From Rhodococcus sp. OK302 (lineage in GTDB: Bacteria; Actinomycetota; Actinomycetes; Mycobacteriales; Mycobacteriaceae): a stretch of DNA of 64,000 bases. The stretch covers positions 5,347,001-5,411,000 of the forward strand of contig NZ_NPJZ01000001.1 in assembly GCF_002245895.1 (NCBI RefSeq), given 5' to 3'. A model generated the notes under the pieces. The model searched no databases and was not told the origin of the DNA. It saw only the letters and a list, made by a program, of their open reading frames with translations. This document shows positions 40,723 to 47,361 of this stretch, piece by piece. Position 1 is the stretch's first letter, and each line of letters begins with the position of its first letter. A program made the position numbers and the translations under genes.

Positions 40723-42180
40723 GGCTCTTCCGTTTCTAGAGTGCATTGATTGATTCCCGGAGCTGACCCGAGTGAATCAGTGACCGCAAGATGTAGTGAT
40801 CGAGATTGCGGAAACCCAGCGCGATACCTCGTAGATACTCGAGCCGGCCGTTGATCGCCTCGACAGGACCATTCGATGCACCGGTATCGAAGTAGGCCAG
40901 GATCTCCTTCCGCCGTTTCCAGAGACTGCGACCGAGCTGAGCCAACTCCGCAAGTTCCTTCGGGACACCGGATTTGATGCGATTGAGGACCTTGTACATC
41001 GCCAACTTCCCCGCCCGCTTGTCCGAATCAGCGTACGCGGCAACAAGTTCCTGGTAGACGCGTTCGGTGACCTCGACATCGATGTGTTCCTCGTCCGCGA
41101 ACACCGCCTCAAGTCGCGCATTCTGTTTGTCGGTACGCAACGTCTCTCGGGTCAGCAGCACCCGTTTGATGCCGTACAACGGGTCACCGGACCGGCCGCG
41201 GTGACCGAGCGTGACCTGCTGGACCCGCTGCCGACACACGGTCAACTTCTCCGCAGCCAAGTGCACTACGTGGAAGGGATCCATCACCGTCCTGGCCTGC
41301 GACAATACGTCTTTGGCGGCCGAGTGGTAGCCGGCGAACCCATCCATCGACACGATCTTCACCCGGTCCCGAAACACCTGATCACGCTCACGCAGCCAGT
41401 CCTTGAGCGCCGCAGCGGAACGGCCGGGAACCATGTCGAGCAACCGGGCCGGGCCGGTACCGTCGATGACCGGAGTCAGGTCCACGATCACCGTCACAAA
41501 GCTCGGATCACCTTGCCCGCGTACATGTTTCCACTTGTGTTCGTCCACACCCAGGACCCGAACTCTGTCGAGGTGGCCGGGCTGGTCGTAGACCAGGTGC
41601 CGGACCGTGGACAGGGCGAGGGAGTTCACCACGTCCCAACTCAACCCCAACGCCGTGGCCACCGCCGAAACCGGCATCTTGTCGCAGGCGAGGCGTCCGA
41701 GGATCCAGCCGGCGGTCCGGCGGGTGGTGCAGGCTTTCGAGGCGGCCACCGTGTCGATGCGTTGACGGAACACCGCCACCTCGCAGGCATCGTTGCCGCA
41801 GGTGAATCGGGGTAGCCGGATGTGAAGGCGGGTGGGATGACCGACGACGGGGAGGTCGGCGAGGGTGCGGGTGACGTGGTCGCGGAGTCGGCCAGGTTTG
41901 CCGCAGGACGGGCACGTCGGGTCGTGTTCGACGGGTCTGCATTCGATGTGGGTGAAGCGTTCGGCGATGGCGGCGCCGGTGATGGTGACGCCGAGTTCGA
42001 CGGTTCGGCAGATGGTGTCGGCGACGAGGTTAGTAGTCTGGTTCATGGGTCCTGTGGTGTGTTCGGATTCGGTGTAGGAACCTTCATCCTCACATCCCAG
42101 GACCCTCTGTATGCCTCTACATCTTGTGTCTGCTCGGATCACCGGAAATCGAGTTCATGCACTCCGGATCCGGAACAGCC
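40723..42180 (-). mobile_element. ISL3-family insertion sequence, complete
   Basis: 1458 bp. The left end begins GGCTCTTCCGTTTCTAGAGT and the right end, read inward, begins GGCTGTTCCGGATCCGGAGT; both continue with GTGCAT and share CCGG further in, giving imperfect terminal inverted repeats. The ends are flanked by the 8-bp direct repeat AGTTTGGC. The element contains one transposase gene on the minus strand. The insertion is in tnpB. Both ends and the transposase appear intact, so it may still be mobile. Confidence 0.95.
40736..42046 (-). CDS. ISL3 family transposase
   Basis: 436 aa. An N-terminal zinc-finger region (CPSCGKPGRLRDH ... FTCGNDACEV) is followed by an HTH (LGLSWDVVNSLALSTVRHLV) and the DDE nuclease: LGVDEHKWKH (first Asp), VSMDGFAGYHSAAKDVLSQA (second Asp) and GPVEAINGRLEYLRGIALGF (the Glu). 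The frame is uninterrupted. The start is ATG at 42046 (MNQTTNLVADTI); the longer frame to 42142 runs into the element end. Confidence 0.93.
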   Translation of the reverse strand: MNQTTNLVADTICRTVELGVTITGAAIAERFTHIECRPVEHDPTCPSCGKPGRLRDHVTRTLADLPVVGHPTRLHIRLPRFTCGNDACEVAVFRQRIDTVAASKACTTRRTAGWILGRLACDKMPVSAVATALGLSWDVVNSLALSTVRHLVYDQPGHLDRVRVLGVDEHKWKHVRGQGDPSFVTVIVDLTPVIDGTGPARLLDMVPGRSAAALKDWLRERDQVFRDRVKIVSMDGFAGYHSAAKDVLSQARTVMDPFHVVHLAAEKLTVCRQRVQQVTLGHRGRSGDPLYGIKRVLLTRETLRTDKQNARLEAVFADEEHIDVEVTERVYQELVAAYADSDKRAGKLAMYKVLNRIKSGVPKELAELAQLGRSLWKRRKEILAYFDTGASNGPVEAINGRLEYLRGIALGFRNLDHYILRSLIHSGQLRESINAL

Positions 42181-42188
42181 AGTTTGGC
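42181..42188. repeat. ISL3 target-site duplication, right copy
   Basis: AGTTTGGC, identical to 40715-40722. It is the base sequence of the original tnpB target. Confidence 0.97.
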
Positions 42189-43415
42189 TTTCACTACCGA
42201 ACAGTTCGAGCAGGTCTTACTCGACGGAAACCACCGATCCGCCACCACAAGGCCGGTACCGGTCCAATCGGTTTTGTAGGTGACTTGGCGCCGGATCTCG
42301 CCGAGCGCCGCATCATGCAACGCGCGATTCAGGCCCTTCTTGTAGGCGCCACCGGATCGGGTCATCCCGGCGACATTCAAATCTTCGACAACGACGGTGT
42401 CGAATTCCTCGACCAGTCGGGTGGTCAGCTTGTGAAGATAATCGCGGCGACCATTCGTGATCCGGGCGTGCACCCGCCGAACCTTGACCTGGGTGCGTAG
42501 CCACCGCTTCGACGGTTGTTGGTCGGTACGCCGGTCCGGGCCCGTGCGCCGCGAGGCTTGACGTTGCAACCGACGCAACGACTTCGCCTGCTTGCGTGCA
42601 TGTTTCGGCCTCTCGATCATCTCACCGGTGGAGAGAACCGCGAGGTGTTTCACTCCCACGTCTACCCCGACTACGGTGCCCGCGTCTCTGCCGCCGCCGC
42701 CGGAACGTAAGGGCGGAAGTGCACGCGACGGGATGATGGTTTCGACTGAAAACGACACCTGCCACCGTCCCCGACGAAACGAGATCGTTGCAGACCGGAT
42801 CCGCGCGGACCCGGAAACGGTTTTGCGCGCCAGTTTCCGGGTGGACTCCGCTGTCCTGACGACCCCGATTCTGGGAAGTTGGACGTGACGGCGATCATCA
42901 CCACCGGTCACCAGCCCGAAACTTCCTGTCGTGAACCGGCACGAAAGGACCGCCCGTTTACTCTTGAAACGGGGAAACCCCATCGAACCTTTTCGTTTCC
43001 CCGTACGCGCGTCCCACCAGTTCCACAATGCCGCAATACAGTTAGCGATCCCGGAACTGTACGCCTCTTTCGAATTCTCCGGCCACCACACCTGCCCCGA
43101 CTCCGGGTTGACCGCCACCACATCTTTGACAGTGTTCCAGTGTTTACGCAGACCGGAAGCAGACCACGACATCGCCGGCGTCAGCGCTGTAACTGGGATG
43201 TCATAGGACTTTTCTGCAGTGCGTTGGTCCAGGTTCGCTGCAACGTGTGACAGCGCCCAGTTGTAGGCGAAACGTTGTGCCCCGCAATGCGACCGCAATA
43301 CATTGACCTGAGCTGGGGTTGGATCAAGCACATAGACGAACGCTCGTGTAACCGACCTTGACGGCGGATCTCCCAGCTCCAGAGAGGACGTCACACCTAC
43401 GGACATATTCTGCAT
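42181..43415 (-). pseudogene. tnpB: tnpB N-terminal fragment (split by ISL3)
   Basis: 411 residues up to the junction. It opens with FVYVLDPTPAQVNVLRSHCG (typical TnpB start) and contains the first catalytic Asp in GVDVGVKHLAVLS and the Glu in VVVEDLNVAGM. The zinc finger begins CSNC just before the junction. The frame runs on for a few residues into ISL3 and stops. Removing the insertion and one copy of AGTTTGGC gives 1512 bp, exactly 504 codons with stop, confirming that a single ISL3 insertion inactivated the gene. Start uncertain (43415 or 43406). Confidence 0.92.
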
Positions 43416-43641: not shown

Positions 43642-43819
43642 CGCTCCCCCTTCGATATGGACTCACTATATTTGATGCGCCCAAACCCCAATCGGTTCCG
43701 CAACCGACAAAATCCCAGGTCCCGAGGGTCTGTTCGCTTCCAGCGCACCTGCAGCGATTGACGACGCTCGCAGCAGTCGCATACTGGAGTGGTTGACCAC
43801 AACTTCGGGAGGGCACCGC

Positions 43820-45496
43820 GTGAGCACACCGAAAGCACCTGCCAAACCAGCGATCCTCAGTGTCGACGACGATCCTGGGGTTTCCCGCGCCGTTGTCCGT
43901 GACCTTCGCAAGCGGTACGGCGAGAAATACCGGATCATTCGTGCTGAATCCGGCGATCAAGCTCTCGAAACTCTTCGAGAAATGAAGCTGCGCGGAGACT
44001 CGGTCGCTGTCATCGTTGCGGACTACCGTATGCCCGGTTTGAGCGGAATCGAATTCCTCGAACAGGCAATGGATCTCTATCCCGTCGCTCGACGCGTCCT
44101 ACTCACTGCCTATGCCGATACCGACGCCGCGATCGACGCCATCAACGTCGTGGATCTCGACCACTACCTCCTCAAGCCATGGGATCCACCGGAAGAGAAG
44201 CTCTATCCGGTGATCGACGCGCTCCTGGACGCATGGGCGAGTTCCAGCCATCATCCTGAGGAGGAAACGAAAGTCGTCGGCCATCGCTGGTCCGGACGAT
44301 CCTCCGATGTTCGAGAGTTCTTGGCGCGCAATCAACTTGCATATCGGTGGTACATGTCGGACGAGCCCGAAGGGCAACGCCTTCTCTCCGCTGCCGACGT
44401 CGACGAACTGAGTCTTCCGATCGTCATCGCACCCAATGGTGATGTTCTCGTCGAGCCGACAGACGCCGAACTCGCCGACAAACTCGGACTGAGCACAACC
44501 CTGTCCGAGGACTTCTACGATTTGGTCGTTATCGGCGGTGGGCCAGCCGGATTGGGTGCCGCACTGTACGGAGCTTCCGAAGGCCTGCGAACAGTACTCA
44601 TCGAACGACGAGCAACGGGTGGTCAGGCTGGCCAGAGCTCGCGTATCGAGAACTATTTGGGGTTCCCCGACGGCGTATCGGGAGCTCAGTTGGCTGATCG
44701 CGCGCGTAGGCAGGCAACAAAGTTCGGCGCCGAAGTCATCACTGCCCGCGATGTCACGGGTCTCGAAATCAACGGCTCTGCCCGCACGGTTCGTTTCGAC
44801 GACGGTACGTCCGTCGACGCGCATTCCGTCATCTTGGCGACGGGTGTTTCCTACCGTCAACTTTCGGCTCCGGGACTCGACACCTTCACCGGTAGAGGCG
44901 TCTACTACGGATCTGCCGTCACCGAAGCTGCTCGCTGCAGTGAACAAGACGTTTACATCGTGGGTGGCGCCAACTCGGCAGGTCAAGCAGCCGTCTATCT
45001 TTCACGCGGTGCACGCTCGGTCACCATCCTCATTCGAGGCGCATCTCTCGAAGCATCCATGTCTTACTACCTGATTCAACAGATCGAGAAGAATCCGAAG
45101 ATCTCCGTTCGCGCCTGCACCGAAGTTATCGGAGCGGAGGGCGACGATCATCTCGAACGAATCACCCTGCTGAATAGAGCAACTGGCGAAGAATCGACCG
45201 TCGACGCACAATGGCTGTTCATCTTCATCGGCGCTGCCCCACTGACGGATTGGCTGGAGGATGTAGTCGTAAGAGACCGCCTCGGGTTCATCCTCGCCGG
45301 CCCCGACCTTGCTTCCGAAGGCGTCACGCCACAAGGTTGGCCGCTCGACCGCGCACCCCATCACCTCGAAACCAGTGTCCCCGGAGTCTTTGTCGCCGGC
45401 GACGTCCATGCCGAATCAGCCAAACGGGTCGCGTCGGCTGTCGGCGAAGGAGCGATGGCCGTGATGTTCGTCCACCGCTATCTCGCTCAACAATAG
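43820..45496 (+). CDS. Response regulator fused to thioredoxin reductase-like FAD/NAD(P) oxidoreductase
   Basis: 558 aa. Residues about 10-135: CheY-like receiver with the phosphoacceptor Asp68 in VIVADYRMPG. About 160-230: a thioredoxin/glutaredoxin-like segment (Trx-fold, no CxxC). About 235-558: thioredoxin-reductase-like flavoprotein with FAD loop VVIGGGPAGLGAALYG, NAD(P) loop YIVGGANSAGQAAVYLSRGA and C-terminal FAD motif GVFVAGDVH. The CxxC redox pair of true thioredoxin reductase is absent: the equivalent stretch reads YYGSAVTEAARC. It is probably a flavin-based sensor or effector whose output is tuned by phosphorylation. The GTG at 43820 follows GGGAGGG. The cognate kinase gene follows 9 bp later. 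Confidence 0.9.
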   Translation: MSTPKAPAKPAILSVDDDPGVSRAVVRDLRKRYGEKYRIIRAESGDQALETLREMKLRGDSVAVIVADYRMPGLSGIEFLEQAMDLYPVARRVLLTAYADTDAAIDAINVVDLDHYLLKPWDPPEEKLYPVIDALLDAWASSSHHPEEETKVVGHRWSGRSSDVREFLARNQLAYRWYMSDEPEGQRLLSAADVDELSLPIVIAPNGDVLVEPTDAELADKLGLSTTLSEDFYDLVVIGGGPAGLGAALYGASEGLRTVLIERRATGGQAGQSSRIENYLGFPDGVSGAQLADRARRQATKFGAEVITARDVTGLEINGSARTVRFDDGTSVDAHSVILATGVSYRQLSAPGLDTFTGRGVYYGSAVTEAARCSEQDVYIVGGANSAGQAAVYLSRGARSVTILIRGASLEASMSYYLIQQIEKNPKISVRACTEVIGAEGDDHLERITLLNRATGEESTVDAQWLFIFIGAAPLTDWLEDVVVRDRLGFILAGPDLASEGVTPQGWPLDRAPHHLETSVPGVFVAGDVHAESAKRVASAVGEGAMAVMFVHRYLAQQ

Positions 45497-45505
45497 GGAG
45501 ATTCG

Positions 45506-46945
45506 ATGTCTGTTCCAGAATGCAGTCCCGAGCTTCTTCGCACACTGTTCTTGTTCGAGGAACTCACCGACGAACAACTCGAAACATTGTGCCGGAGCGG
45601 TCATATCGTCGAGATCGAGCGCGGTCAGGTATACCTCGAAGGTGAGCCTGCATCGTGCTTTTACGTTCTCATCGAGGGCGAGCTGATCATGTCGAAGCTC
45701 TCCGGCGGCGAAGACATCGAGATGGTGCGGACTTCACAACGAGGCGTCTATTCGGGCGGTTGGACGTCGTATCTCGGTGATCGTGTGCCGCAGATCTATT
45801 CAGCATCGCTGCGCGTAACCAAACCGTCGACGTTCTTCGTTCTGGATGCCGACAAATTCGGCGAGGTAGTGCGCAAGTGGTTTCCGATGGCCGTTCATCT
45901 GCTCGAAGGTGTGTTCTTCGGCAATCAGAACGCCCGCCAGATCATGGACCAACGCGAACGTCTTCTCGCACTCGGATCTCTCTCTGCGGGTCTGACCCAC
46001 GAGCTCAACAATCCTGCCGCTGCAGCAGTTCGGGCAACTGCGTCGCTGCGTGAACGCGTCGCTGCAATGCGTCGCAAACTTGGCATGATTGCCACCGGCG
46101 CCTATGACCGCGAATCGCTAGTCACACTCATGCATATGCAGGACGAAGTCGCCGAAGTAGTTGCCAAGGCTCCGACGCTCACGCCACTTGAAGCGTCGGA
46201 TCGCGAAGACTCCCTGGGCGAATGGTTCGAAGAGCATTCCATTCGCGAGGGTTGGGATCTTGCGCCGACCTTCGTACAAGCTGGCTTGGACACAGATTGG
46301 CTAGAGAATGTTGCTGCGGCAGTTGATGAATCCGTGCTCGAAGGTGCAATTCGCTGGCTGAACTACACGATAGAATCCGAGCTTCTCATGAACGAGATCG
46401 CTGATTCCACTACGCGAATTTCCACGCTTGTCGGTGCCGCCAAACAGTATTCGCAGATGGACCGGGCCCCTTTCCAGACCATCGACGTCCACGAATTGCT
46501 CGACAGCACCCTGATCATGTTGGGTCAGAAGATCGGGGACATCACCGTCGTCAAGGAGTATGACCGGACCCTGCCTCCGATCGACGCGTATGCGGGTGAA
46601 CTCAATCAAGTGTGGACAAACCTGATCGACAACGCTGTTTCCGCGATGGACGGGTCCGGAACACTCACCATTCGCACTAGTCGGGACGGCGATCGAGTGT
46701 GCATCGAAATCTGCGATACCGGATCGGGAATCCCCGACGACGTCATCGACAGGATCTTCCAGCCGTTCTTCACCACCAAGCCTGTTGGCGAGGGAACTGG
46801 CCTGGGCCTTGATATTTCGTGGCGAATTGTTGTCGGTAAGCACCACGGCGAACTGCGAGTCACCTCGGAACCTGGGAATACCCGCTTCCGAGTTCTGTTG
46901 CCCATCTCTGGGCCGGAGCGTAATCCTCTCGACGACGCCGAGTAG
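45506..46945 (+). CDS. cNMP-binding sensor histidine kinase
   Basis: 479 aa, no membrane segment. An N-terminal cyclic-nucleotide-binding beta-barrel (about 10-125: SGHIVEIERGQVYLEGEPAS) is followed by a linker with the phosphorylated His165 in GLTHELNNPAAAA, and a C-terminal ATPase with NQVWTNLIDNAVSAMDGSG, DTGSGIPDDV and GEGTGLGLDIS. Soluble kinases of this build are partners of the receiver-flavoprotein fusion encoded immediately upstream. Whether it binds cAMP or another ligand is unknown. Confidence 0.92.
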   Translation: MSVPECSPELLRTLFLFEELTDEQLETLCRSGHIVEIERGQVYLEGEPASCFYVLIEGELIMSKLSGGEDIEMVRTSQRGVYSGGWTSYLGDRVPQIYSASLRVTKPSTFFVLDADKFGEVVRKWFPMAVHLLEGVFFGNQNARQIMDQRERLLALGSLSAGLTHELNNPAAAAVRATASLRERVAAMRRKLGMIATGAYDRESLVTLMHMQDEVAEVVAKAPTLTPLEASDREDSLGEWFEEHSIREGWDLAPTFVQAGLDTDWLENVAAAVDESVLEGAIRWLNYTIESELLMNEIADSTTRISTLVGAAKQYSQMDRAPFQTIDVHELLDSTLIMLGQKIGDITVVKEYDRTLPPIDAYAGELNQVWTNLIDNAVSAMDGSGTLTIRTSRDGDRVCIEICDTGSGIPDDVIDRIFQPFFTTKPVGEGTGLGLDISWRIVVGKHHGELRVTSEPGNTRFRVLLPISGPERNPLDDAE

Positions 46946-47007
46946 CGCAAGCTGGCCTGGGCGCGCACCATGAATAGAGCACCATCACTTCGACGAGGGG
47001 ATGAACA

Positions 47008-47361
47008 ATGACCGATGGGCTGCCAGTAGGGATCGATCCGAGTGTCCCGCCGAGCGGGGCTGGGTGCGTCGAATGTGATGCAGTGGCAGGTTGGTGGGTC
47101 CATTTGCGACGGTGCGCGCAGTGCGGTCACATCGGTTGCTGCGACTCCTCCCCTGCGCAACATGCCAGCGCCCATGCCGCAGCGACCAAGCATCCATTTA
47201 TGCAGAGTTTCGAGCCCGGCGAGGACTGGTTCTGGAGCTTCGAAACCCAAGAGGCATACGACGGCCCCGAATTGGCGGCGCCCACTTCACATCCCGCAGA
47301 TCAGCCGGTTCCGGGTCCAGCTGGCCGAGTACCCGCTGATTGGCAGGATCACATCCACTGA
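47008..47361 (+). CDS. UBP-type zinc finger protein
   Basis: 117 aa. The zinc ligands are arranged as in ZnF-UBP: CVECDAVAGWWVHLRRCAQC, then GCCDSS and HASAHAAATKHP. In eukaryotes this finger binds the free C-terminus of ubiquitin; in bacteria its ligand is unknown. In actinobacteria it occurs next to flavoprotein-receiver/histidine-kinase pairs, as here. It starts 62 bp after the kinase, likely in the same operon. It is convergent with the WXG100-like gene (1 base apart). Confidence 0.88.
   Translation: MTDGLPVGIDPSVPPSGAGCVECDAVAGWWVHLRRCAQCGHIGCCDSSPAQHASAHAAATKHPFMQSFEPGEDWFWSFETQEAYDGPELAAPTSHPADQPVPGPAGRVPADWQDHIH

Follow-up and report, generated by a model that had tools for sequence, protein, structure and literature searches.

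Introduction

Two-component systems in which the output is a redox flavoprotein are, to our knowledge, rare among those that have been studied. The fusion of a receiver domain (REC) to thioredoxin reductase (TrxR) was already listed, as an architecture, by Galperin et al. 2018 (PMC5847659), and in NCBI such proteins appear under the names fused response regulator/thioredoxin-disulfide reductase, thioredoxin reductase or plain FAD-dependent oxidoreductase. Here we analyse a locus of this kind from Rhodococcus sp. OK302, located in a window of 64,000 nucleotides (contig NZ_NPJZ01000001.1, positions 5,347,001 to 5,411,000) of a 6.79 Mb genome consisting of two contigs. It carries, all on the + strand, a receiver-flavoprotein gene (the response regulator or RR gene) followed by genes for a histidine kinase and a UBP-type zinc finger (zf-UBP). 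We propose, giving it about an even chance, that these constitute a two-component module with a flavoprotein effector as output, instead of a DNA-binding domain, and with the UBP protein as partner or client adaptor. The proposal draws on the covariation of the receiver phosphorylation site with kinase linkage, on the loss of two CxxC motifs from the flavoprotein and on the recurrence of UBP genes beside it. Both families are large: at E ≤ 0.001 the finger has 7170 homologues, and for the flavoprotein at least 8000 were scored. The literature searched, whose coverage leaves out many subscription papers, yielded no publication about the three genes together or about UBP proteins in the company of such flavoproteins.

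Organisation of the Module

The gene order and domain make-up, established from the sequence, are as follows:

43820..45496, + strand: RR gene encoding a REC–glutaredoxin-like–TrxR-like flavoprotein of 558 aa, GTG start (mechanical open reading frame 43793-45496)
43853..44191, + strand: CheY-type receiver domain, residues 12-124, with the phosphorylation-site pentad D16 D17 D68 T96 K119 intact
44021-44023, + strand: phospho-acceptor Asp68 of the receiver, from the pentad alignment
44258..44515, + strand: glutaredoxin/mycoredoxin-like fold, residues 147-232, with S158xxS161 in place of CxxC
44516..45493, + strand: TrxR-like FAD/NAD(P) domain, residues 233-558, with a lone C373
45506..46945, + strand: soluble histidine kinase of 479 aa, HATPase_c at residues 365-467
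45629..45874, + strand: cyclic nucleotide (cNMP)-binding-fold domain of the kinase, residues 42-123, with a non-canonical pocket
45998-46000, + strand: H-box His165 of the kinase, from the kinase alignment
47008..47361, + strand: UBP-type zinc-finger protein of 117 aa, zf-UBP domain
47134-47145, + strand: GCCD loop of the finger, at the ubiquitin-pocket position

The three-gene arrangement, its coordinates and order, and the gap of 9 bp between the RR stop and the kinase ATG are as the original prediction had them; 62 bp separate the kinase stop from the UBP ATG. Pfam matches above cut-off were obtained for Response_reg (54.0 bits), Pyr_redox_2 (112), HATPase_c (86.6) and zf-UBP (48.8). For the RR gene, GTG at 43820 is preferred to the TTG at 43793 that opens the mechanical reading frame, because GGGAGG lies just 5' of it and the most similar homologues have a length of 558 aa. 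A single transcript is supported by a Streptomyces plasmid on which the annotated genes of the trio overlap by 4 bp at each junction.

Linkage and Covariation of Kinase and Receiver

The best 80 matches of a kinase search of genome_contigs fall in 79 loci, the closest to the module being from R. qingshengii. At all 30 loci with a kinase of the family type (L048-L077) the RR gene lies immediately 5' of the kinase gene, while the kinases at the other 49 loci are weaker relatives, and the flanking DNA examined contains no fusion next to them; one of these loci (L078) begins at a contig edge. Linkage was also evident in a survey of 198 genomes of the phylum, where the glutaredoxin-like/TrxR-like core was found in 44 genomes (E ≤ 1e-60), the kinase in 26 (E ≤ 1e-30) and zf-UBP in 45, and where the RR gene lies within 200 bp of the kinase at 25 of the 33 kinase places. 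The unlinked kinase places comprise four tandem kinases (G130, G195), one apparent contig break (G183) and singles in G074, G172 and G194.

Among the 47 receiver-type places of this survey, 46 have a protein and 43 are complete at the five pentad sites; L136 was counted as receiver-type by alignment only, having no Pfam Response_reg match, and is incomplete in this count. Of the 25 kinase-linked places 23 are complete, with L029 (truncated) and L199 (G141) left out, and the pentad is intact in every one (L198 with Glu for the first Asp). At the 22 places lacking such a kinase within 200 bp, 20 of them complete, it is intact in a single case, L038 (G183), where the contig ends just past the gene. 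The linkage and the covariation are established for these genomes; the latter is the strongest sequence evidence for a predicted phosphotransfer, and kinase and receiver very probably form a pair.

The kinase-less receiver-type members L041-L046, L136 and L145 have degenerate or altered phosphorylation sites, form a branch of their own (99/99) and are likely to be pseudo-receivers. In a Mycobacterium metagenome-assembled genome a single frame (L075:8504-11128) joins RR residues 1-493 to kinase residues 126-470, and this chimeric frame may reflect a deletion or an assembly artefact.

A Flavoprotein Lacking Both Dithiols

The flavoprotein had been described as retaining both nucleotide loops while lacking the CxxC disulfide, and this holds for all members aligned: CxxC is present in none of 39 aligned cores, nor in any of 46 survey rows (a set overlapping the 39), whereas the FAD and NAD(P) loops are kept, R406 occurs in 39 of 39 rows and 43 columns, including the glycine loops for FAD and NAD(P), are invariant over these 39 diverse rows. 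By BLAST, the two TrxR cysteines align with S365 and T368 of the window core (44912-44923); the genuine TrxR of the same genome keeps CATC as its CxxC. The glutaredoxin Cys positions are also replaced, the one being Ser in 33 of 39 rows and the other Ser or Thr in 33 of 39, and both sets of residue losses are established by the alignments.

The window protein has the two-domain FAD/NAD(P) fold of thioredoxin reductase. An ordinary thioredoxin reductase was nevertheless rejected as unlikely, in agreement with the original expectation, on the absent CxxC and a score of 225.6 bits against the cut-off of 343.45 for TIGR01292 (NAD(P)H thioredoxin reductase), and AhpF was rejected on the same absence and 164.2 bits against 502.9 for TIGR03140. 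The lone C373 was considered as a catalytic cysteine and rejected; carried by 24 of 39 rows (20 of 26 in the kinase-linked group), it is not a defining residue. In all likelihood, therefore, the flavoprotein is no disulfide reductase, and on balance we predict that it is an active NAD(P)H flavoprotein; the domain content supports the earlier view of a flavin/NAD(P) protein as the output. The genome also encodes two genuine thioredoxin reductase copies, protein-identical over the match (L004, G000:C1:1946443; L005, 985269).

What was initially termed a Trx-fold segment does have a redoxin fold and is, more specifically, of the glutaredoxin fold. Searched singly, the window segment gave no family match, but Glutaredoxin was matched by 10 of 30 aligned members, a 30-row profile had 2lqo (M. 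tuberculosis Rv3198.1) as its best PDB match (E 3.4e-9) and the predicted structure shows the order beta-alpha-beta-alpha-beta-beta-alpha. The flavoprotein model (mean pLDDT confidence 87.4) fits the FR form of L. lactis TrxR (5mh4) to 2.2 Å over 302 residues and the FO form (5mjk) to 7.2 Å over 301 residues. Since the listed structure-search rows span the TrxR part alone (229-558, with one AhpF row from 211), assignment of the receiver and glutaredoxin folds rests on sequence and model secondary structure.

UBP Linkage and Exchange of Input Domains

In the 198-genome survey UBP genes are present in 31 of 44 core-bearing genomes and 14 of the 154 others, leaving 13 genomes with only the core and 140 with neither (Fisher p 1.7e-15, kinship ignored), and 13 of 61 UBP genes lie no more than 5 kb from a core gene, against 0.18 expected by chance placement. 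Within the genus Rhodococcus the RR gene was detected (E ≤ 1e-150) in 20 of 28 genomes. In 19 of these 20 UBP lies 1.41-1.52 kb 3' of it, a kinase-length spacing, and in G246 at 4.4 kb; the Rhodococcus trio occurs more than chance would allow. Beside the kinase–RR pair, UBP was found at 14 of the 30 genome_contigs loci, at 13 downstream, including an Acidobacteriota locus (L076), and at one divergently oriented (L064). Among the plasmid records listed (60 of 131 and 60 of 86), 22 are common to both lists, and in 19 of these core and UBP are at most 2 kb apart.

Three core architectures were distinguished, with a receiver (and kinase), with a fused cNMP domain (L127, L128, L141, L142, L151, L154) and with no input domain (L152, L153, L156), and UBP adjoins examples of all three as well as one kinase-less receiver type (G106). 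A core tree of 51 rows resolves a cNMP-type group (85/98), the kinase-less receiver group (99/99) and a larger group of kinase-linked and minimal members (85/96), on bootstraps that have not settled, a midpoint root and a very long TrxR branch. In G097 kinase and UBP are fused in one reading frame (L132, 555 aa, cNMP + HATPase_c + zf-UBP), and in a relative, G207, UBP follows the kinase in a different frame (L158). As read from gene content, then, the constant part is core plus UBP, and the input varies between receiver plus kinase, fused cNMP domain and none. The co-occurrence anticipated for the three genes was found across genomes, but the strict trio represents one variant within this broader pattern. 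UBP is probably a functional partner of the core.

On one Deinococcus and two Nostoc plasmids (L148, L150, L155) the REC-flavoprotein gene has a gene for LtrA (low temperature requirement A) at most 5 kb away.

Residues of the Kinase and the Finger

The canonical cNMP cassette reads GE..PR, with a phosphate-binding Glu and Arg. The cyclic-nucleotide domain attributed to the kinase has the expected fold, with a match of 27.3 bits that falls slightly under the Pfam cut-off of 27.5; the canonical pocket is confined to 3 of 28 kinases (L037, L040, L132), and the window kinase, whose pocket reads GVYSGGWTSYLGDRVPQIYSAS and lacks the phosphate-binding Glu/Arg arrangement, is not among them. The ligand is therefore probably not cAMP, which is disfavoured by these pocket residues. 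The H-box and ATP-binding residues H165, N169, N376, D404, G406 and G408 are invariant in all 28, and the residue following the H-box His is Glu in 24 and Gln in 4. The four H-Q kinases (alignment position 166) belong to L056, L027, L028 and L060, none of which adjoins UBP. At L131 (G195) and L135 (G130), three tandem cNMP-fold kinases follow a single REC-flavoprotein gene.

The zinc-ligand set of the finger (C20 C23 C36 C39 C44 H52 H56 H62) is invariant in 18 of 18 aligned fingers, as is an extra C45 that is followed, at the ubiquitin-pocket loop, by an acidic residue (GCC plus Asp in 17, Glu in one); at positions 46-47, Asp/Glu precedes Ser/Thr/Ala/Asn throughout. The aromatic residues W30, W74 and F/Y78 are likewise kept in all 18, position 78, near the Y261 region of USP5, being Phe in 11 and Tyr in 7. 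Among PDB profile matches 2ida comes first (130.8 bits), followed by USP5, USP49, USP13, USP16 and HDAC6. The USP5 finger, as described in PMC3247260, requires W209, R221 and Y261, and the R221K change raises its dissociation constant from 2.3 to about 100 µM, a roughly 40-fold weakening. No equivalent of R221 occurs in any of the 18 fingers, so that ubiquitin reading, at which the original prediction had hinted, is disfavoured. The fingers of USP20 and USP33, according to PMC13376213, recognise a [KR]xxL-type motif instead of the end of ubiquitin, and together with the missing arginine this makes motif reading the likelier precedent.

The second zf-UBP gene of the genome (L146:7317-9279) is divergent from a Na+/H+ exchanger gene; a UBP domain is fused to such an exchanger in L137 (G085), and in L183 and L184 the two lie side by side. 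The partners of the finger therefore extend beyond redox proteins.

Proposed Mechanism and Alternatives

In the proposed module the cNMP-fold domain of the kinase would respond to a redox cue or a small molecule, the latter probably other than cAMP. Once phosphorylated at His165, the kinase would transfer its phosphoryl group to receiver residue Asp68, and the receiver would then shift against the glutaredoxin-like linker and switch the FAD/NAD(P)H core derived from thioredoxin reductase. As the CxxC motifs of both TrxR and glutaredoxin are gone, electrons could not exit by that route; the flavin would instead reduce a non-disulfide acceptor directly, or else the core may act through conformational changes that depend on its redox state. 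Most likely, the UBP finger would dock a client or peptide, as the USP20/USP33 fingers bind non-ubiquitin motifs; to the specific role of client adaptor we give clearly less than even weight. Phosphotransfer, NAD(P)H oxidation and contact between UBP and core are all three predictions.

A number of observations weigh against this scheme. The phospho-acceptor Asp is kept in 7 of the 20 complete unlinked receivers, L193 departs from an intact pentad solely in having Cys where the first acid should be, and D, T and K are present in the truncated L186; the unlinked receivers may have other partners, since the search covered only kinases like that of the module. Only one of the three NADPH-site arginines (HRRxxxR) of the genome's real TrxR is kept in the window core, which makes pyridine-nucleotide use uncertain, and the resemblance to the FR form may reflect a bias of the template-free modelling. 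UBP is not beside the pair at 16 of the 30 genome_contigs loci and is absent from the flanking DNA examined at all 11 Mycobacterium/Mycolicibacterium (6) and Nonomuraea (5) loci; most core genes of the survey have no UBP within 5 kb, and it is therefore not obligatory at the locus. It also pairs with kinase-less, cNMP-fused and minimal flavoproteins, and the kinase–UBP fusion occurs in just one of 35 family genomes. Three of the 28 Rhodococcus genomes have the window-type UBP without an RR gene at E ≤ 1e-150. The Fisher and Poisson figures disregard shared ancestry, and several of the 22 plasmids are near-identical Rhodococcus ones, their double listing preselecting co-occurrence. In the three UBP-only Rhodococcus (L177, L178, L179) the gene lies near short-chain dehydrogenase/reductase (SDR), alcohol dehydrogenase, old-yellow-enzyme or luciferase-type genes, with baeRF in two.

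The flow of information might also run the other way, the CxxC-less core being a flavin/NAD(P)H redox sensor whose flavin state would set the kinase/phosphatase balance, with receiver and kinase as read-out or phosphate sink. The double dithiol loss is no less compatible with a sensor than with an enzyme, the kinase is soluble with a sensory fold of its own, and three tandem kinases stand behind a single RR gene in G130 and G195. However, the exchange of inputs (receiver, cNMP, none) around a persistent core and UBP points to the core as output and no extra gene recurs at the locus past the genus level; we regard this reversal as fairly unlikely. A scaffold that is catalytically dead, a phospho-switch with a purely structural FAD, would agree with the loss of CxxC motifs throughout and of all but one Arg of the NADPH HRRxxxR site, but is improbable given 43 invariant columns in 39 rows, which exceed the constraint that a scaffold seems to need.

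About as doubtful is disulfide chemistry in trans, by which C45 of the GCCD loop would dock at the flavin and supply the thiol relay that the core lacks. All 18 fingers have C45, which need not be a zinc ligand, as it aligns with the Gly of the USP49 CGR loop, and UBP recurs next to the core; yet the GCCD loop is also found in the UBP domain fused to the Na+/H+ exchanger (L137), and many core loci have no neighbouring UBP. That the finger reads a bacterial ubiquitin-like C-terminus (e.g., Pup or Bil-type), coupling tagging to redox control, we consider very improbable: the zf-UBP fold and the aromatic residues W30, W74 and F/Y78, kept in 18 of 18, speak for it, but the finger family is common on plasmids of Rhizobium, Agrobacterium and Burkholderia, groups that are not known to have Pup. 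Moreover, R221 of USP5 is not kept, and R221K by itself weakens binding about 40-fold in the data of PMC3247260.

A wider extension of the preferred two-component scheme would see the CxxC-free flavoproteins derived from TrxR and glutaredoxin as a dedicated signalling-output class in which either phosphorylation or an attached cNMP-type domain acts as the switch; UBP would be a motif-reading adaptor that delivers clients to these flavoproteins and, independently of them, to Na+/H+ exchangers. We consider it unlikely as it stands; if it were true, the ubiquitin-reading finger of eukaryotes would be one specialisation of an older bacterial adaptor for redox and ion homeostasis.

Surroundings of the Module

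Scans of the module for promoters and terminators gave matches at chance level and none above it, including the following:

43758..43785, + strand: sigma-70-like promoter match 5' of the module (1 found, 1.3 expected)

A larger conserved operon was considered and rejected, genes beyond the trio recurring solely within genera or close genera among the 30 loci compared. The three proteins gave no match to the PADLOC anti-phage defence models. In the adjoining DNA (40736-43415, - strand) an ISL3-family transposase frame lies next to an IS607-type TnpB, whose model match ends at position 363 of 431, near the start of the ISL3 frame, such that TnpB looks shortened.

Significance and Comparison with Known Systems

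The module is widespread, and for the aligned members the database name thioredoxin reductase is at odds with the residue evidence, by which they cannot be ordinary thioredoxin reductases. The trio bears on the role of zf-UBP outside eukaryotes, and its defined form in Rhodococcus makes the electron acceptor, the kinase cue and the finger ligand directly testable.

AhpF (1hyu, 4xvg, 4o5q) resembles the window protein in carrying a redoxin-fold module N-terminal to a TrxR-like module, and it uses dithiols in both its parts. The window protein has neither dithiol, has a single glutaredoxin fold where AhpF has its N-terminal domain and adds a receiver; as Foldseek alignments with AhpF extend over 511-596 columns at a root mean square deviation of 19-27 Å, it is the domain order and not the overall shape that the two have in common. 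The glutaredoxins and mycoredoxins match the window segment in fold but not in their active-site CxxC or CxxS (S158xxS161). Closer are the proteins named in NCBI as cyclic nucleotide-binding domain-containing thioredoxin-disulfide reductase (L127, L128, L141, L142), which have the same CxxC-free glutaredoxin-like/TrxR-like core, with UBP nearby, and differ in that the cNMP domain is directly fused, with no kinase or receiver step. The window finger shares its Cys/His pattern and aromatic pocket with the zf-UBP domains of USP5, USP16, HDAC6 and 2ida, the closest solved bacterial relative, and differs from the three eukaryotic ones in its GCCD/E loop and in lacking the arginine for the ubiquitin C-terminus. 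By domain order and homology the window protein belongs with the REC–TrxR response regulators listed by Galperin et al. (PMC5847659). To that listing, which concerns architecture, the present comparison adds, at the level of sequence, the loss of both CxxC motifs, the covariation of pentad and kinase, the pairing of the core with UBP under an input that varies to include an interchangeable cNMP domain, and the residue losses of finger and kinase pocket.

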